Source: Verrucomicrobiota bacterium (GTDB lineage: Bacteria > Verrucomicrobiota > Verrucomicrobiia > Limisphaerales > SIBE01). From it: DNA of 39,516 nt. How positions within the stretch are numbered: the first letter of the stretch is position 1; the number at the start of each line of letters is the position of its first letter. Below are positions 2,804 through 28,144 of the stretch, one piece after another. The notes under the pieces are model-generated. The model saw only the letters and a program-made list of their open reading frames with translations. It searched no databases and was not told the origin of the DNA. Where the stretch lies: the NCBI GenBank assembly GCA_016871535.1, contig VHCZ01000028.1, positions 1 to 39,516 of the forward strand, in the 5' to 3' direction. The translations under genes and the position numbers were made by a program.

Positions 2804-5800
2804 ATGAATATCATGAAGCGGTTGAGTCTGCTGACGACTTCAGCTCATTCAAGACTCTCGCGAAAGGAGCGCGGGCAGCCTGCCCGCGCAGGTTTTTCGC
2901 GCGACTCTTTGAACACCGCGCGGGCAAGCTGCCCGCGCTCCTTCACGCTGGCTTGCTGGCTGGCGGTATTTTTCTTGGTCTCTTTGTTCGGCGCTTCCGC
3001 CTTCGCCGCGACGGTCGTTCGCGTCGTCAGTACGACCATCGGCGAGAACTCGACCGGCACCGCAATCATCGAGATGGTCGCCGATGGCAACGAAGCAGCG
3101 CTGGGTTTCACCCTGAACTTCGATCCGGCTCGCTTGACCTTTGCCAGCACGACGATCGGGGGGAGTGTCACCGCGGCGACGCTGAACGTGAATAATCTGC
3201 AGGCGGCCAGCGGCAGGCTTGGCGTCGTGATAGGGATGCCCCCTGGCCGGAGCTTCCCCGCCGGGACTTTGGAGTTGCTCCGGGTCAGTTTCACGACCAG
3301 CAGCGTGGGCGGCTCGACGCAGATCACTTTTGGAGATGTCCCCGTCGTTCGCGAGGTCTCCAATCGGCAGGCGGTGGCGCTGACCGCGACGTTCACGCCG
3401 GGCACGGTGCTGGTGAACAGCCCGCCGATCGCGAACAGCCAGAGCGTCAGCGTGCGGGAGGATGGATCGGTCGACATCACCCTCACAGGGTTTGACGCCA
3501 ACGGCGATGGGCTGAGTTTCAGCATCGGCAGTTCGCCCACGCGAGGGACTTTGAGCGGATCTGCTCCCAATCTGACTTACCGGCCTAATCCCAACGTGAA
3601 CGGGCCGGACAGCTTCAGCTTCACGGTCAACGACGGTTTCGCCACTTCAGGCGCGGCGACGGTGAACATCAACATCGCCTCGGTCAACGATCCGCCCACG
3701 TTGAGTCCCATTTCTTCTCAAACCGTCGCGGAAGGAAATCCTCTGACGTTCACGGCCTCGGCCACCGACGGCGATGTGCCGCCCGATCCGCTGAGCTTCA
3801 GTTTGGAAGGCGCGCCACCGGGTGCGTCCATCAGTCCGTCGGGCGCGTTTACCTGGACGCCGACGGAAGCACAAGGACCTGGAACTTACACGATCACGGT
3901 GCGGGTCACCGACACTGGTTCGCCGCCTTTGAGCGCGACCCAGTCGTTCTCGGTCACGGTAACCGAAGCCAATCAACCCCCGGTTTTCCCCGCGCTCGGC
4001 AGCCAGACTGTCAACGAAGGAAGCCTGCTGGCGGTGGTCGCTGTTGCTGCGGATCCCGACCTGCCCGCCCAACCGCTCCAGTACAGCCTGGACGGAGCGC
4101 CTCCGGGCGCATCGATTGATCCCACATCCGGCATTTTCACGTGGACACCGACGGAAGCGCAGGGGCCCGGCCAGTACTCGATCAATGTTCGCGTGTCGGA
4201 CGGAGCCGGGGGCACAGCGACCGCGAGTTTCCAGATCAACGTTCAGGAAGTGAACGCGCTTCCGACTCTGGCGCCGATCCAAAATCAGAGCGTCCGGGGC
4301 GGGCAAACATTGTCGTTCACCGTGAGCGCGAGCGATCCCGACTTGCCCGCGCAAACTCTCACGTTCAGCCTGCCTTTCGGCGGCCCCATCGGCGCGTCGA
4401 TCAATCCGACGACCGGCGCTTTCTCGTGGACGCCTCCGGCGGGATTGCCCGACTCGACCGAGTCCGTGACTGTGCAAGTGACCGACAGCGGCGGGTTGAG
4501 CGCGGTGCAGAGTTTCAGCATCGCGGTCGCGGCGTCGAACACGCCGCCGTTGATGTCTCCGATCGCGCCACAAACGATCAACGAAGGCGTCGCGCTGACT
4601 TTGAATCTCAGCGCCACGGACACCGATCAACCGGCGCAGGTGCTGACGTTTTCCGCGGAATCCGGCGCGCCGCCCGGATTGAGCGTCAGCCCCGCGGGAG
4701 CGCTTTCGTGGACGCCGACCGAAGCTCAAGGGCCTGGCAGCTACCAGGTCACCGTGCGCGTGACCGACAACGGAGCGCCGCCGCTCAGCGCCACTCAAGT
4801 AGTCAGCATCACCGTCAACGAAGTCAACGCGCCGCCCGTCCTGGCCGCCATCGCGGATCAAACAGTTCGCGCGGGCAATCCATTGACTGTGTCGGCCGCG
4901 GCGACGGATTCAGATCTGCCTCCGAATCCTTTGACCTACAGCCTTGGCGCGGGCGCGCCGCCGGGAGCTGCGATCAATCCGGGCACGGGAGCATTCTCCT
5001 GGACGCCCACCGCGGCGCAAGGAGGGACGACCGTTCCGATCACGATCGTCGTGACCGACAACGCGACGCCGCCCGGAACCGCGAGCATTACCTTCAACGT
5101 AGAGGTCAGTCCGTCCAATACCGCGCCCGTCCTGTCCCCCATCGCGGATCAGACGATTCCTGAAGGAAGTCCGTTTTCTCTCACCGTGACGGCGACGGAC
5201 GCGGACGTTCCCGCCAACACCATCGCGTACGCCCTGGGTCCCGGCGCGCCCCCCGGCGCCACGATCAACCCCACGACCGGCGTGTTCACCTGGACACCGA
5301 CCGAAACCCAGGGACCAAGCGTCAATCAGATCACCGTCATCGCCACGGACAACGGCATTCCTCCGTTGGGTGCGACCAACCGATTCACTCTCAACGTCAC
5401 CGAAGTGAATCAGCCGCCGACGCTCGGAGAGATCTCGGATCAAACCGTTGAGGCGGGACAGGCGCTCACTTTTCCCGTGAGCGCGAACGATCCGGACTTG
5501 CCGCCCAACATTTTGACTTTCAGCGTTGGCCCTGGCGCGCCCACCGGAGTCACCGTCAATCCGGCCACCGGAGAATTTTCGTGGAGACCGACCGGTTTGC
5601 AGGGCCCCAGCACGAATCGCATTACGATCCAGGTCGCGGACAACGGGACGCCAAGCCTGAGCACGAATCGAACTTTCACCGTGATCGTGACGCGCCTGAA
5701 CCAGCCTCCGGTCTTGGCGCAGATTGCGAATCAAACCATCGCGGAAGGGAGCCCATTGACGTTTACTGCGAGCGCGACCGACCCTGACCAGCCTGCCCAA

Positions 5801-20619: not shown

Positions 20620-20709
20620 GCGTCAAACGTCAAACGTAAAACGTAAGTGACGTGAGACGTGCGTGAAGTTGCGTTTTACGCATTACGTTTTACGTTTTGC
20701 GCATTACGG
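20620..20709. repeat. Inverted heptamer arrays between rodZ-like and rimO
   Basis: Left array: cgtcaaa cgtcaaa cgtaaaa cgtaagt with a seven-base period (20621-20648). Right array: inverted tacgttt/tacgcat units (20674-20709). The two could pair into one long imperfect hairpin in the rodZ-rimO gap. Confidence 0.75.
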
Positions 20710-20748: not shown

Positions 20749-22479
20749 GTGACGAAAACTTTCGACAACGCTGATCCAATTCGCGTCGGCCTCGTGTCGC
20801 TCGGCTGCGCCAAAAACCTGGTCGATGCCGAAGTGATGCTCGGCTCGCTGATCAAAGACGGATTTGAAATCACCAACAACGCGGCGAACGCCGATGTGGT
20901 GATCGTCAACACTTGCTCGTTCATCGACTCTGCGCAGGAGGAGAGCGTCGATGCGATCCTGGAATCCGATGCGTTGCGCCAGGCGAGAAATCCGGGGCAG
21001 GGATTGATCGTGTCCGGCTGTTTGCCGCAACGGTTCCGAGAGGAATTGCCGAAGTTGCTGCCCGAAGTCGATGCGTTCATCGGGATCGATCAAGTGGCGC
21101 AGATTTCGGAAGTGGTCCGCGCGGCTTTGGCCCGGCGAATGGCCCGGCTTCAGGAAGCGGAGGCCGGGATTCTCACTCCCAGTCCTAATCTTAATCCTAC
21201 TCCTAAGCTTACCCCTAAGCTTACTCGACGAGGGGACGACCTCGAGGGGATTAGGAGTAGGAAAACGGGGCGTTCTGAAATCGCGGTTGGTGCGGCGTCG
21301 ATGAAAGCGGAAGGCGGGTTCGCGCATACATCGCGCGTTGCCATCCCTCTCGAAGCCCTCGTTGCTGTTCAACCGCGCCCGAAATACATTCCGGATTACG
21401 CCACGCCGAGATTTCGGCTTACCCCCCGGCACTTTGCCTACGTCAAAATCGCGGAGGGCTGCAATCATCCTTGCAGTTTTTGCACGATCCCAAGGATGCG
21501 CGGCTCGCACCGCAGCCGGCCCCAACGCGATCTTGTTGAGGAAGCCCGGCGTCTAATCGCGGATGGCGTCAAAGAACTGAATCTGATTTCGCAGGATTCC
21601 ACTTACTACGGCCTGGATTTGCGCCCCAATCGAATTGGCTCCATCGCAGCGCCGGATAATTTCAAAGCCGCGGCCCGTGCCTTGCCCGTCGGCGCGGCGA
21701 CCTTGTGTACCTTGTTGCGCGCGCTGAATGATTTGCCGGGCGAATTCTGGATCCGGCTGCTTTACACCCATCCGGCGCACTGGACCGACGAATTGATCCG
21801 CACGATTGCCGCATGCCCGAAAGTCGCGCGCTACGTGGACATGCCGCTGCAACATATCCACGACAACATGCTGGAACGGATGCGCCGCGAAACTTCGCAG
21901 CAATATATTCGCGACCTGATCGCCAGAATCCGGGCCGGCGTGCCGGGAATCGCGCTGCGAACGACTTTCATCGTCGGATTCCCGGGCGAGACCGAGGCTT
22001 ATTTTGAAGCGCTGTTGGATTTTATCCGCGAAACGAGGTTTGAGCGTCTGGGCGTGTTCACGTATTCGAAGGAGGACGGAACCCTGGCCGCCCGCATGAT
22101 GAGTCAGGTGCCGGAACGGATCAAAAAGCAGCGCCGCCGCCGCGCCATGGCCGAGCAGTTGCGCGTGGCCCGCGCCGTTTCGCAGTCCTTTGTCGGGCGC
22201 GAGATTCGAGTGCTCGTCGAACGCAAGGCGACGGAAGCCGACCTTCACAAGGCGAATGTCTCGTCCTGGGAACACGGACTGATTCGCAGCGGCCAGAAGG
22301 CGGGCCAGGCCTTGAAGGGAACTTATTTGATCGCCCGCGGCGAGGCGGACGCGCCGGATATCGATGGCCGCGTTTATGTGCGCGGACGGTTGCTGTTAGG
22401 CGAATTCGCGGATGTCAAAGTCGTTGGCCACACCGATTACGACTTGATCGCGCAGCCGGCCGCAGAAAGTAATCAGTGA
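20749..22479 (+). CDS. rimO: Ribosomal protein S12 methylthiotransferase RimO with an inserted linker
   Basis: RimO adds a methylthio group to an aspartate of ribosomal protein S12 using two iron-sulfur clusters. The N-terminal domain cysteines are C20 (SLGCAKN), C56 (VNTCSFI) and C91 (VSGCLPQ). The radical-SAM triad is C238, C242, C245 in CNHPCSFCTIPRMRG, and a TRAM-like end follows. At 576 residues it is well above the roughly 430-460 usual for the family. The main excess lies between about residues 140 and 208, where a DNA repeat (21173-21268) is translated as PTPKLTPKLT and following residues; a smaller extra stretch follows the radical-SAM triad. All catalytic residues are intact and the frame is open, so it is probably functional. 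The start is GTG 20749. Confidence 0.93.
   Translation: MTKTFDNADPIRVGLVSLGCAKNLVDAEVMLGSLIKDGFEITNNAANADVVIVNTCSFIDSAQEESVDAILESDALRQARNPGQGLIVSGCLPQRFREELPKLLPEVDAFIGIDQVAQISEVVRAALARRMARLQEAEAGILTPSPNLNPTPKLTPKLTRRGDDLEGIRSRKTGRSEIAVGAASMKAEGGFAHTSRVAIPLEALVAVQPRPKYIPDYATPRFRLTPRHFAYVKIAEGCNHPCSFCTIPRMRGSHRSRPQRDLVEEARRLIADGVKELNLISQDSTYYGLDLRPNRIGSIAAPDNFKAAARALPVGAATLCTLLRALNDLPGEFWIRLLYTHPAHWTDELIRTIAACPKVARYVDMPLQHIHDNMLERMRRETSQQYIRDLIARIRAGVPGIALRTTFIVGFPGETEAYFEALLDFIRETRFERLGVFTYSKEDGTLAARMMSQVPERIKKQRRRRAMAEQLRVARAVSQSFVGREIRVLVERKATEADLHKANVSSWEHGLIRSGQKAGQALKGTYLIARGEADAPDIDGRVYVRGRLLLGEFADVKVVGHTDYDLIAQPAAESNQ
21173..21268. repeat. In-frame tandem/inverted repeat inside rimO
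   Basis: A cctaagcttac unit occurs at 21202-21212 and 21214-21224, preceded by cctaatcttaatcctac units. An 11-bp perfect inverted pair cctactcctaa (21196-21206) and ttaggagtagg (21251-21261) closes the element around gacgaggggacgacctcg. It is read through without a stop. Confidence 0.8.
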
Positions 22480-22571
22480 TCAATATTCAGTAATCAGTTA
22501 CAGAGGGCCCGCAAGCAGCGATCGACTATTTGCCCATTTAGCTCATTTAACCCATTTAACCAGTTAACCTT
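22470..22571. repeat. Short tandem repeats between rimO and pgsA
   Basis: A seven-base series (agtaatc agtgatc aatattc agtaatc) begins at the rimO stop. A second, nine-base series (catttagct catttaacc catttaacc) follows at about 22536-22562. No gene is visible in the 144-bp gap. Confidence 0.6.
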
Positions 22572-23875: not shown

Positions 23876-24217
23876 GAAGGGGATGTGTCATCTTCACGCG
23901 TTTTGCGTGGAAATGATCACGCGCACTGCTTCGCGTTAAATCGGTTAAAAGGTTAAATCGTTAAAAAAGTGGTTGAGATCGGGTGAACCACAGTCAGCGG
24001 GCGTTCGCGCGCGCCGTGACAATTCTCCACGCTGCGGCGAGCCAGGCGAAACCTCCCCCATTTAACCTATTTAACCCATTTAACGATTTAACGTTTCAAC
24101 AGCGCTACGCCTCCGTGGCACTGACGCGCTAAATACTTTTTTACCGAAATAGAATTGACACTCTGATTCGTTTGATTAGAGTGCAGCGACCGTTACCCAG
24201 TAATAACCGAAAAAACT
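23876..24217. other. Gap with inverted ttaaatcg/cgatttaa arrays
   Basis: No gene seen. The left array (23937-23966, ggttaaaa ggttaaat cgttaaaa units) is inverted about 90 bp later in catttaacc tatttaacc catttaacg (24059-24094). Downstream, an A/T-rich stretch (24130-24165) may contain the pseudopilin promoter (ttgaca at 24155), but no matching -10 box is clear. Confidence 0.6.
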
Positions 24218-25234: not shown

Positions 25235-25370
25235 CGTAGCGCAGATTTCCAATCTGCTGTCTCGCCGATTTGCAATCGGCAGGGCGCCAGCCAATCCCAG
25301 CGCGCTCGGACCGTGAGCCGCCCCGCAGAATGCAATTCTGCGATACGGCAGAGTGCAACTCTGCGCTACG
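25235..25370. repeat. Family D: symmetrical four-hairpin array
   Basis: Four 17-bp palindromes stand in two pairs: gcagatttccaatctgc (25241), gccgatttgcaatcggc (25264), gcagaatgcaattctgc (25325) and gcagagtgcaactctgc (25348). Starts within each pair are exactly 23 bp apart. The whole is enclosed by cgtagcgcaga and its inverse tctgcgctacg. No gene is seen between 24947 and 25437. Confidence 0.85.
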
Positions 25371-25437: not shown

Positions 25438-26397
25438 TCACCTCGCGGAAGCAGTCAACTTGATGATCTGATCGAGACGCGTATTCGGTTGGAAGCCGAC
25501 CGTCCGAAGGAGCTTTTCGACCACGGGCTTTCGGCGTTGCATGTCCTGGAATCCAGCCGCGTAGGCTTCGCTGTAAGGAACAAATTCAATTGGTGATTTG
25601 GATTTCAACACTCGCACGACCAGCTTCGCCAAATCCCCGATGCGGATCTCTTCCGTGCCGCCGATGTTGAAGACGCCCCCTCTGGCTTCGGATGATTGTT
25701 GCAGGCGGATCAGCGCCTCCACCGTATCGACGACGTAGCAAAAGCATCGAGTCTGCTGTCCGTCCCCAAATACTTTCAGGGGCAAGCCCGCCTTTGCCGC
25801 GGCGATAAAGCGGGGCAAGACCATGCCGTAACGCCCAGTCTGTCGCGGGCCGACAGTGTTAAAAAGTCGCGCGATCACCACGGGCAGACTTTTTTCCTGC
25901 GCGTAGGCCAGTGCTAGAAACTCGTCCATGAGCTTCGAACAGGCGTAGCTCCAGCGCCCCAGAAAAGGCGGCCCAATCAGCAAATCGTCTTCCTCGTTAA
26001 ACGCCGCCTTCTGGCTCTTGCCATAAACCTCCGAAGTGGACGTCAACAGGACAGGGACGGATTTCGCGCCGGCGGCCTGCAAGATCACTTCCGTCTCGTG
26101 CAGGTTAGTTTGAATCGTGCGAATAGGCGAGTGGACCACCAATTCCACGCCAACCGCCGCAGCCAGGTGAAAGATGAAGCTGGCGTTCGCGATGACGGCG
26201 TCGAGGTCCCCGCACTCGGAAACCTTCGCGCGAATGACACGAATATCCGGGTGGGAGATCACCGCCTGGAGGTTGTCCAGGCTCCCGGTTGAACAATCGT
26301 CAATGACGGTGACGGCGTTGCCTTCGCGCAACAGCCGCTCGACCAGATGCGATCCGATGAACCCGGCGCCGCCGGTGACAAGTATGTGAGTTTTCAG
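25438..26397 (-). CDS. NAD-dependent sugar-nucleotide epimerase/dehydratase (extended SDR), start codon disrupted
   Basis: The Rossmann motif GGAGFIG (8-14) and catalytic Tyr151/Lys155 (YACSK) mark an extended short-chain dehydrogenase. TSTSEVYG, RLFNTVGPRQ and YGMVLPRFI resemble UDP-glucuronate decarboxylase and UDP-glucose/galactose epimerase relatives; the substrate cannot be fixed. About 319 residues. No ATG, GTG or TTG precedes the Rossmann motif: the frame opens after a TGA at 26401-26403 that lies inside a heptamer repeat. The first usable codons are CTG (26397) or ATA (26385). A TTG at 26331 would delete the NAD-binding loop. The upstream repeat may have replaced the true start. Translation may rely on CTG, or the gene may be newly inactivated. 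Confidence 0.8.
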   Translation of the reverse strand: MKTHILVTGGAGFIGSHLVERLLREGNAVTVIDDCSTGSLDNLQAVISHPDIRVIRAKVSECGDLDAVIANASFIFHLAAAVGVELVVHSPIRTIQTNLHETEVILQAAGAKSVPVLLTSTSEVYGKSQKAAFNEEDDLLIGPPFLGRWSYACSKLMDEFLALAYAQEKSLPVVIARLFNTVGPRQTGRYGMVLPRFIAAAKAGLPLKVFGDGQQTRCFCYVVDTVEALIRLQQSSEARGGVFNIGGTEEIRIGDLAKLVVRVLKSKSPIEFVPYSEAYAAGFQDMQRRKPVVEKLLRTVGFQPNTRLDQIIKLTASAR

Positions 26398-26454
26398 TTG
26401 TCAGTTGTCAGTTGTCAGTTGCCAGTTGTCAGTGGTCAGTGGTCAGTGGTCAGC
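26391..26454. repeat. Heptamer array, left end of the four-helix-bundle cassette
   Basis: cagttgt/cagtggt-type seven-base units repeat about nine times. The array supplies the stop codon of the four-helix-bundle gene (26450-26452) and abuts the start region of the epimerase gene. Confidence 0.88.
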
Positions 26455-26806
26455 TAATCGAGTTAATCAGACCGTTCACGACGCGACCAACTTCCGACGT
26501 TCGCGCGAGCAAGCTCTCGGTCTGGCTATTATCGAGATAACCTAACCGTTGGGCGATGATTAACTGGGTCTCGGATTCCAGCAGAGAACCGTGAGCAACG
26601 CGGAGTCCCCGGACAAACTCGTTCGGCGTTCTTCGGCCTTGGCCCTCCGCGATGTTGGACGGAACCGAAACCGCCGCGCGTCGAACCTGGCTGGTCAATC
26701 CGTATATCTCGCGTTGCGGAAACTGATTGGTCGCCTCATAAACGGCAACTACCAGGTCAATCCCCTTTTGCCAGGCGATAAGGTCTCGGTAATGCATGAT
26801 CTTCAT
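26450..26806 (-). CDS. Four-helix-bundle (IVS/S23-type) protein
   Basis: This 118-residue helical protein has the family signature: YRDLIAWQKGIDLV near the start, FPQREIYGLTSQVRRAAVSVPSNIAEGQGR in the middle and a later ESETQL segment. Relatives are encoded in 23S rRNA intervening sequences, and the Avd accessory protein of diversity-generating retroelements has the same fold; free-standing copies are common but of unknown function. It has a strong Shine-Dalgarno (aaggagga, reverse complement of 26811-26818). It lies inside a compact 540-bp unit bounded by inverted heptamer arrays, between amidase and epimerase genes. No reverse transcriptase or rRNA is nearby. Confidence 0.9.
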   Translation of the reverse strand: MKIMHYRDLIAWQKGIDLVVAVYEATNQFPQREIYGLTSQVRRAAVSVPSNIAEGQGRRTPNEFVRGLRVAHGSLLESETQLIIAQRLGYLDNSQTESLLARTSEVGRVVNGLINSIS

Positions 26807-26897
26807 ATTTTCCTCCTTGATGTATTGTTTGATGTCGTTTGCCAGTCCACCTCCAGGCGGCTAGCAATTCGCGACCTTTCTTGCCCAGAACGCTCGC

Positions 26898-26937
26898 CAC
26901 TGGCAACTGAAAACTGACAACTGGCAACTGGCAACGG
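26898..26937. repeat. Heptamer array, right end of the four-helix-bundle cassette
   Basis: cactggcaactgaaaactga followed by caactggcaactggcaacgg: seven-base units that are the inverse of the array at 26391-26454. It ends one base before the amidase stop codon (26939-26941). Confidence 0.85.
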
Positions 26938-26938
26938 T

Positions 26939-28144
26939 TCACTCCAGCGCCTTTACCACCGCTTCCGCCAACTTCTGACGGTACGCAGGGCTGGCGATGA
27001 GGCGCGCTTCGTCCGGGTCGGACAGGTAGCCGCCTTCGAGCAAAACGGCGGGGCGATTTTGCTCGCGCAAGACCGTCATGAATCGCGCGCGCTTGATGCC
27101 TCGATCGTTCCGTTCCACCAGTTGCACCATGGCGTGGTGCAGGCGGACGGCGAGTTGAAGATTCTGTTCGTCAAAGTCGTTGTTCGGAAAAATCATGGCA
27201 GGCACGTCTTTGAACTGGCGGACCAGATTGGACGGCATGCCCGTTGGGGTCAGGCAGTAAGTCTCCAGTCCGTGGTGCTCCGGCCGGGCCGATTGGGCAT
27301 CGACCGAGTTAAAGTGCAGGCTCACGAACAAGCTGGCGTTCGCCTGTTCGGCGATGCGCACGCGTTCGGCGATGGGCACATCGACATCCGAAGTGCGCGT
27401 TAACACGACGCGCCAGCCTTTGGCATTCAGAAGCGGCTTCGCTCGAAGTGCCCAGTCCAGGGTGTAATCTTTTTCAAACCCCGTTTTGAGCACGCTTCGG
27501 GCGCCGGTTTGCTCGCCGCCATGGCCCGGATCGAGAACAACGATGCGACGCCCATCCAATCTCGGTCCCGAAGAAGCGAGCAGCGGCGCGAAATTCTTCC
27601 GCAAATCCAGCGTGTGGAGGAACGGGAGGCCGTCGCTCAACTGCGGGACAAAGCCCAATGCCAGCGCCAGCCCGTTCCAGTACGCGACGCGGCTGCCGAT
27701 GGTGAGCGAGAGCACGCCGTTGGTGCTGCGGCATTGGAATGTCGCTCCCCAGCCGTTGTCGAAGCGCTTCGGCGCTTCCAGGCCGTTCAGGCGATTCCAG
27801 TTTTCGAGCGCGACCCAGCCGGTGGTGGGGAGCGATCGAGCTTCCGGACGTTTCGAGTCTGCAACGTCGATTGGCGTGGACACCGCAGGAAGCGCGTTCG
27901 ATGACGCAGCCTGAAAGCCGCCCCCGGCTCGCGTTGGCGTAGAGAATCGCAGTGCAACCTGGCGGGTGGCGTTCGTGCCTGAAGAACCCTCCGGCGGCGG
28001 CAGTTTCAAGGGTTGAACTGCCGGCGCCGGAGGCAAGGTCGTTCCCAAGGGGGTGATTCTTGGAGCTGTTTTCGGCGGACTGGGACACGCGGTCAGAAAG
28101 ACGAGCGCCGCCATCAAGGCAGCGAACAACCAGGGCTTCGGCAC
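26939..28144 (-). CDS. N-acetylmuramoyl-L-alanine amidase (Amidase_3), lipoprotein
   Basis: The 401-residue protein cuts the bond between muramic acid and L-alanine in peptidoglycan. A lipoprotein signal ends at FLTAC (C20), so it is probably membrane anchored in the periplasm. A small domain (about 105-190) resembles a copper-amine-oxidase N-like fold. The catalytic domain (about 200-400) carries zinc ligands H208 (DPGHGG), E224 and H277 (SLHFNS) plus catalytic E370 (VLLEGGYLS). All key residues are present. It lies downstream of deoC on the minus strand, separated by a large palindrome. Confidence 0.92.
   Translation of the reverse strand: MPKPWLFAALMAALVFLTACPSPPKTAPRITPLGTTLPPAPAVQPLKLPPPEGSSGTNATRQVALRFSTPTRAGGGFQAASSNALPAVSTPIDVADSKRPEARSLPTTGWVALENWNRLNGLEAPKRFDNGWGATFQCRSTNGVLSLTIGSRVAYWNGLALALGFVPQLSDGLPFLHTLDLRKNFAPLLASSGPRLDGRRIVVLDPGHGGEQTGARSVLKTGFEKDYTLDWALRAKPLLNAKGWRVVLTRTSDVDVPIAERVRIAEQANASLFVSLHFNSVDAQSARPEHHGLETYCLTPTGMPSNLVRQFKDVPAMIFPNNDFDEQNLQLAVRLHHAMVQLVERNDRGIKRARFMTVLREQNRPAVLLEGGYLSDPDEARLIASPAYRQKLAEAVVKALE

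Follow-up and report, generated by a model that had tools for sequence, protein, structure and literature searches.

A candidate minimal mobile element with inverted tandem-heptamer ends and a single gene of the 23S rRNA-intervening sequence protein family

A small gene between an amidase and an epimerase gene of a Verrucomicrobiota bacterium, coding for a 23S rRNA-intervening sequence protein (IVP), is part of a cassette that, judged by comparison of genomes, turns out to be a presumptive mobile element of bacteria at large, found in many phyla and apparently inserting directly downstream of other genes' stop codons. It is quite probably a minimal mobile element, with inverted arrays of tandem heptamers as its ends and the IVP gene as its sole gene, in which the IVP would read the heptamers for movement. 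Structures of the IVP (S23) family have been available since 2006 and, to our knowledge, no function has been assigned to the family. Cyanobacteria, Xanthomonas, Beggiatoaceae and other bacteria are rich in tandem heptamer repeats, for which we know of no accepted origin either.

The cassette and its empty and filled sites

The window is the whole stretch of 39,516 nucleotides that was analysed. The cassette occupies positions 26385-26935, about half a kilobase, and the IVP gene is its only gene (Table 1). The two arrays are the arms of an inverted repeat (57 nt, 77% complementary, 443 nt apart); in the sense of the IVP gene the left array is the 3' end of the element and the right array is the 5' end. 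The element is closely fitted between its neighbours. The left array includes the IVP stop codon, 26450-26452, and likely also the start codon of the epimerase gene, a CTG at 26398-26400, and the amidase stop codon, 26939-26941, adjoins the other end. The preliminary description of this DNA had recognized a 118-residue protein of the intervening sequence (IVS) type with a strong ribosome-binding site, and the PF05635 match and AAGGAGGAA agree with this. The cagttgt heptamers that it placed on one side and their inverse on the other are borne out by the TRF arrays and the inverted-repeat arms, and its placement of the IVP stop codon in the left array was correct. It had the right array ending one base before the amidase stop; the distance is three bases.

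Table 1. Parts of the cassette in the window and the two genes beside it
Feature	Position	Strand	Basis
Left heptamer array, (CAGTTGT)n	26385/26389-26453	+	TRF period 7, 9.9 copies (~10), 90% matches, score 96
IVP gene, 118 aa, ATG start	26450-26806	-	PF05635/TIGR02436 four-helix bundle
IVP ribosome-binding site AAGGAGGAA, strong	26810-26818	-	Sequence
5' leader of the cassette, from upstream array to IVP gene	26819-26898	-	Sequence
Right heptamer array, inverse of left (CAGTTGT-type on minus strand)	26899-26935	-	TRF period 7, 5.3 copies, score 53
N-acetylmuramoyl-L-alanine amidase (Amidase_3), upstream of the insertion	26939-28144	-	PF01520, E 1.1e-43
NAD-dependent epimerase, downstream of the insertion	25438-26400	-	PF01370, E 2e-50 over the open frame

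Other repeats are present in the window. Two short period-7 arrays (CGTCAAA and CGTTTTA) at 20621-20698, just upstream of the gene at 20749, are possibly a gene-less heptamer element. At 25325-25370, in a repeat-rich intergenic stretch, a 23-bp unit, GCAGAATGCAACTCTGCGATACG, is repeated in tandem and looks like a separate family of dispersed palindromic repeats. Similar CCCATTTAA-type 9-mer arrays at 22533-22569 and 24057-24092, about 1.5 kb apart, bracket a gene pair.

The IVP matches PF05635 ('23S rRNA-intervening sequence protein') with an E value of 6.8e-37 (126.4 bits, cut-off 33.8) and TIGR02436 with an E value of 2.8e-36 (124.1 bits, cut-off 24). The predicted structure (pLDDT 96) agrees with that of 2GSC, a pentameric Xanthomonas protein (Foldseek TM 0.94, rmsd 0.7) and, more remotely, with the Avd chains of diversity-generating retroelements (DGR), 4DWL and 8UB7 (TM 0.77-0.81 by query length). 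Invariant residues of the IVP include R42, S46, N50, E53, G54, G72, S73 and E76. Purifying selection acts on the protein, and it does so when copies at different sites are compared as well, with dN/dS roughly 0.1 (0.17/1.45 for the orthologous copies of genomes G000 and G002, 0.05/0.38 for the pair L057-L068 and 0.09/0.92 for the pair L272-L273). No transposase family is found among the profile matches of the cassette's only gene, and the cassette encodes no nuclease or polymerase.

The junction between the amidase and epimerase genes was compared in related genomes. In four genomes of the same family and other genera (G004-G007) the junction is empty, and the stop codon of the amidase gene either overlaps the start of the epimerase gene or almost reaches it. 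The full cassette is found there in G000 and G002, both of the window genus. G001, of this genus too, has an internally deleted copy, in which both arrays are retained, the 5' leader is largely kept and most of the IVP gene is missing. At this place G003 has a spacer, some 200 bp long, that is unrelated to the cassette. In the three cassette-bearing genomes the epimerase frame most simply starts at a CTG inside the array. The target duplication at the window site is ambiguous. As part of the best explanation of the whole, there is good reason to think that the cassette entered the junction of amidase stop and epimerase start, arrays included, in an ancestor of the window genus.

Empty sites, which had been proposed as a check on insertion, were found not only at this junction in G004-G007 but also at two sites, A and D, on cyanobacterial plasmids. 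Site A is filled in plasmids of Trichormus and Scytonema and empty in 97%-identical plasmids of Aulosira, Nostoc carneum and Microchaete. The empty site reads ..AAAAAGTAATTAACAAA and the filled site, with the element boundaries marked by a stroke, ..AAAAAGTAAT / AAATCAGAATTCAG..IVP..GTTCTTCTTT / GTAATTAACAAA. Array, IVP gene and array are either all there or all missing at this site, as a single unit, and the insertion has duplicated 5 bp of the target, GTAAT. At site D, for which the filled and the empty site are found on two plasmids of one Nostoc strain, TTCTA is duplicated. The sequences at sites C, F, G and H have diverged too far for such a decision, and a search for 5-bp duplications beside 78 elements gave 2 where 2 were expected from shuffled pairings; with no excess across the 78 elements, the 5-bp duplication is claimed for the two resolved sites only. 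Array length, which it had been suggested should be compared among strains, does vary: at site A, two filled and near-identical plasmids have left arrays that are unequal in length by two units (14 bp).

Derivatives of the cassette also occur on the Nostoc plasmids. A truncated site-A cassette in Nostoc C052 (L289, 1438-1590) has its left array and the start of the IVP gene fused to the downstream gene. At site B, Nostoc ATCC 53789 has a AAGGGAACTC-type array-only derivative without the IVP gene (L292, 1396-1730); the full cassette is found in other plasmids.

Related cassettes at different sites are similar over their own length. The flanks of L272, L273 and L284 are unrelated, and the stretch between the outer edges of their arrays, exactly 416-419 bp, is 78-82% identical. 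L057 and L068, two copies in one genome, are 89% identical over 466 bp, again from edge to edge. That the protein and the heptamer ends form a minimal insertion unit had been suggested from the window, and the edge-to-edge similarity and the empty and filled sites support the suggestion. Movement of the cassette as a unit, arrays included, is well supported by comparisons of this kind.

Heptamer arrays and insertion targets across bacteria

The survey sample comprised 120 PF05635 loci from many phyla, with 117 or 116 genes evaluable depending on the test. Period-7 arrays scoring at least 12 were found within 250 bp upstream of 44% and downstream of 57% of 117 IVP genes, compared with 2.2% of distant control windows. 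Other periods (4-6, 8-13 and 15) were seen beside only 0-3% of the IVP genes. Both-sided inverted arrays of heptamers, at distances of up to 300 bp, were found for 67 of 116 IVP genes (58%) and at none of 1015 control positions; free-standing homologues elsewhere thus do have arrays, and the window gene is one of many IVP genes between inverted heptamers, a point that had been put forward as a check. Strong arrays were present on both sides of 55 genes, and in 51 of these the two arrays shared one heptamer in reverse-complement orientation (6-7 of 7 matching), the figure for shuffled pairings being 13.6%. The same strict both-sided test was passed by 21 of 39 IVP genes, paralogues included, in seven genomes, a set that overlaps partly with the 120 loci, and arrays flank 11 of 12 IVP copies on cyanobacterial plasmids.

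The heptamer is particular to the element, 52 types being found among 78 elements. Its sense strand is mostly AGTNNNN upstream of the gene and the complement of this downstream, and the polarity is fixed, with AGT present upstream in 50 of 67 units and downstream in 1 of 67. A universal AGT core was considered and rejected; it holds for closer relatives only, and divergent IVPs have units such as GAATGAT, GATTTAT and AAAGGAG. Paralogous IVPs in one genome carry different heptamers. The window genome has 11 IVP genes, of which 8 have a period-7 array with a score of at least 10 on at least one side and 3 have none of that score on either side, and the heptamers vary by gene (GTTTCGA, GTTCGTG, GGAGTGC, AAACGTA and others). 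The type of heptamer tracks the phylogeny of the IVP (Mantel r 0.44, 0 of 999 permutations), which is compatible with recognition of the heptamers by the IVP; gene and arrays that are simply inherited together would also be expected to give the correlation. One exceptional IVP gene (L048, flanks of 3001-3339) has arrays that are direct and not inverted, with ACTGCCT on both sides.

The outer array edge lies at most 10 bp from the stop codon of a neighbour in 63% of 78 elements, compared with 9% of random intergenic positions. The stop codon is strictly outside the element and no more than 10 bp away in 30 of the 78, and in some cases the array itself may supply the neighbour's stop. The left neighbour is on the strand of the IVP gene in 55 of 65 typed cases (55 vs 10). 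Why do the cassettes lie so close to stop codons? This may be a matter of target choice or of the survival of harmless insertions. Cassettes were also met between the RNR beta and alpha genes, between cas6 and cas4, between cas10 and cmr3 and inside T4SS clusters, and the RNR and Cmr sites have counterparts without a cassette. The IVP cassettes within CRISPR operons are at 1501-1869 of L271 and 1501-1857 of L281 (cas6|cas4 and cas10|cmr3). Insertions of this kind might account in part for the '23S rRNA IVP' that is named in a legend to a figure of PMC10910872.

Gene-less arrays and known elements

Arrays without an IVP gene are common, with 28 found in an unbiased 400 kb of the window genome. 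Gene-less short inverted pairs have the polarity of the cassettes, with 10-160 bp between the arrays. In 791 kb of the same genome two inverted pairs are more than 400 bp apart and both enclose an IVP gene. The preliminary description had held that heptamer arrays equally common beside unrelated genes, with no association, would count against its proposal. Arrays without the gene do occur, but the inverted pairs that are long surround an IVP gene, and control positions show no such association. AGTTCTC has 61 and 84 matches in two genomes that have AGTTCTC IVPs and 0-2 in 18 others, whereas AGTGGAT arrays are plentiful in G058 and G060, the resident IVPs of which are without that unit. A rule that orphan arrays always match a resident IVP was therefore dropped, as it holds for AGTTCTC, G000 and G062 and fails for AGTGGAT in G058 and G060. 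With the gene-less inverted pairs and the distribution of AGTTCTC set against the AGTGGAT exception, it is likely that miniature derivatives of the cassette exist, and these may be mobilised in trans. The density of period-7 arrays in IVP-rich and IVP-free relatives (10 in 324 kb vs 5 in 341 kb, leaving out a second G000 batch that was partly chosen by heptamer matches) is too weak a difference to add to this. Between the arms of short inverted heptamer pairs without IVP, at 5902-6118 of L160 and 8522-8708 of L162, there is a hairpin of the GGTGGGGCGA...TCGCCCCACC type, which is a dispersed repeat of another kind.

Intergenic 7-bp tandem units like those of the cassette arrays have been reported before. 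TAACTGA repeats, which on the other strand have the unit AGTTATC, were described in Beggiatoaceae, cyanobacteria and Bacteroidetes, and GGGAATC and GGGGA(C/T)T heptamers in Xanthomonas and Nostoc; convergent pairs are reported in Xanthomonas (PMC4692102). Neither a gene nor a mechanism of mobility accompanies these reports (PMC4679880, PMC4692102). In the open-access literature no paper was found that links PF05635 genes with heptamer arrays and none that describes the cassette.

The 23S rRNA IVS of Leptospira and Coxiella are similar to the cassette in having an ORF of the same S23/IVP family, a terminal inverted-repeat stem and a length of about 430 nt. The Coxiella IVS, which has been termed a selfish element, has a terminal stem of 28 bp, and its ORF is immediately preceded by a tandem (GACAGAT)n, the copy number of which varies between strains (PMC4990558). 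The idea that the IVS ORF serves mobility goes back to Ralph and McClelland in 1993 (as cited in PMC4990558). Known IVS lie within 23S rRNA and are excised by RNase III, whereas the cassette is found between protein genes at stop codons and has long arrays at both ends and a strong ribosome-binding site. In the window, inverted repeats surround the ORF as in an IVS, and the location is between amidase and epimerase genes and not in 23S rRNA. The Avd protein of DGR has the fold of the IVP, with a profile match to DivGenRetAVD (E 4e-6) below the cut-off of that profile; no reverse transcriptase is encoded in the element or the window, and the two RVT_1 matches of the genome are on contigs C111 and C32. 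An insertion sequence (IS) encodes a transposase, which the cassette does not; the ends of the cassette are inverted repeats, and a 5-bp duplication is seen at the two resolved plasmid sites, though not across the elements. REP/RAYT (TnpA-REP) systems and MITEs offer an analogy, a gene-bearing element together with dispersed gene-less repeats that share its ends. Unlike in these, the gene associated with the heptamers codes for an IVP, which is not a Y1 transposase as in REP/RAYT nor a DDE transposase, and the element ends in tandem heptamers, which are not the same from one element to the next. MITEs have no coding capacity and the cassette has a gene under purifying selection, although short array-only pairs would fit this definition. 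Since the cassette lacks defining features of IS (a transposase), DGR (a reverse transcriptase), RAYT and 23S IVS (a place in rRNA), it is filed as new, and the 23S rRNA IVS are probably a special case or relatives of it.

How the cassette may move

We infer that the IVP recognises its own heptamers and takes part in movement. By homology the IVP would be a pentameric barrel of the Avd fold, which may bind its own heptamers at both ends of the element, either as DNA or as their stem-loop RNA; in the predicted fold of the cassette transcript the arrays are the basal stem. The IVP would then bring the ends together and recruit a cutting and joining activity. Integration would take place at a target that overlaps a stop codon, with a short duplication of 5 bp, so that the stop codon of the neighbour is preserved. 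If the gene were lost, short array-only pairs would remain, perhaps mobilised in trans. It is quite possible, though tentative, that this is a new class of element, in which a non-enzymatic Avd-fold pentamer and a host activity move an element with its own heptamers to stop codons, and which is the source of the 23S IVS and of many arrays.

Other explanations were considered. The IVP may bind the stem-loop RNA of the arrays, which is then copied by a reverse transcriptase acting in trans and integrated, as in DGR. The structural homologue Avd belongs to a DGR reverse-transcriptase complex (8UB7), and the predicted RNA stem and the bias of the left neighbour towards the strand of the IVP also point this way, but an RVT_1 domain was not found in 12 of 30 IVP-bearing genomes, several of which are incomplete assemblies. 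An obligatory reverse-transcriptase partner was rejected on this count, and the RNA route as a whole seems unlikely. Somewhat less likely still is that the cassette is a MITE-like passenger, the termini of which are read by a DDE or Tn3-type transposase of the host, with the IVP serving otherwise. The 5-bp duplications at two sites, as made by such transposases, and the inverted array pairs without a gene would be expected of a passenger. However, the 52 heptamers of the 78 elements would need as many cognate transposases, long inverted pairs, where this could be checked, always enclose an IVP, and purifying selection acts on the IVP between copies at different sites.

The start or the stop codon of the IVP gene is often directly adjacent to an array, and the TAACTGA repeats of Beggiatoaceae have been put forward as translational regulators (PMC4679880), so the arrays could regulate the IVP gene, by autoregulation or as an RNA switch, with mobility incidental. 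This is improbable, as the arrays are the ends of the element at polymorphic sites and are retained in the G001 derivative after loss of most of the IVP gene. It could also be supposed that the heptamers arose first, by slippage, and that IVP genes insert into arrays or persist near them, given how widespread arrays without IVP are. The empty sites, site A included, hold no arrays, which contradicts arrays as pre-existing targets; the arrays come in with the gene, their inverted polarity is fixed and the similarity between cassettes stops at the outer array edges, all of which makes an origin from arrays very improbable indeed.

The reading of the cassette as an element moved with the help of its own IVP offers a role for a protein family without an assigned function, as well as a source for genome-wide heptamer repeats. 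The cassette gives natural empty and filled sites, and both questions can be tested in culturable strains, for example with plasmid C of Trichormus variabilis ATCC 29413, the cassette heptamer of which is TCAGGAG. IVP genes inside cas or other operons may be insertions and not components of those systems. If the reading is true, a new class of mobile element would lie behind the 23S rRNA IVS and many of the dispersed heptamer arrays, with each element having evolved a heptamer of its own.
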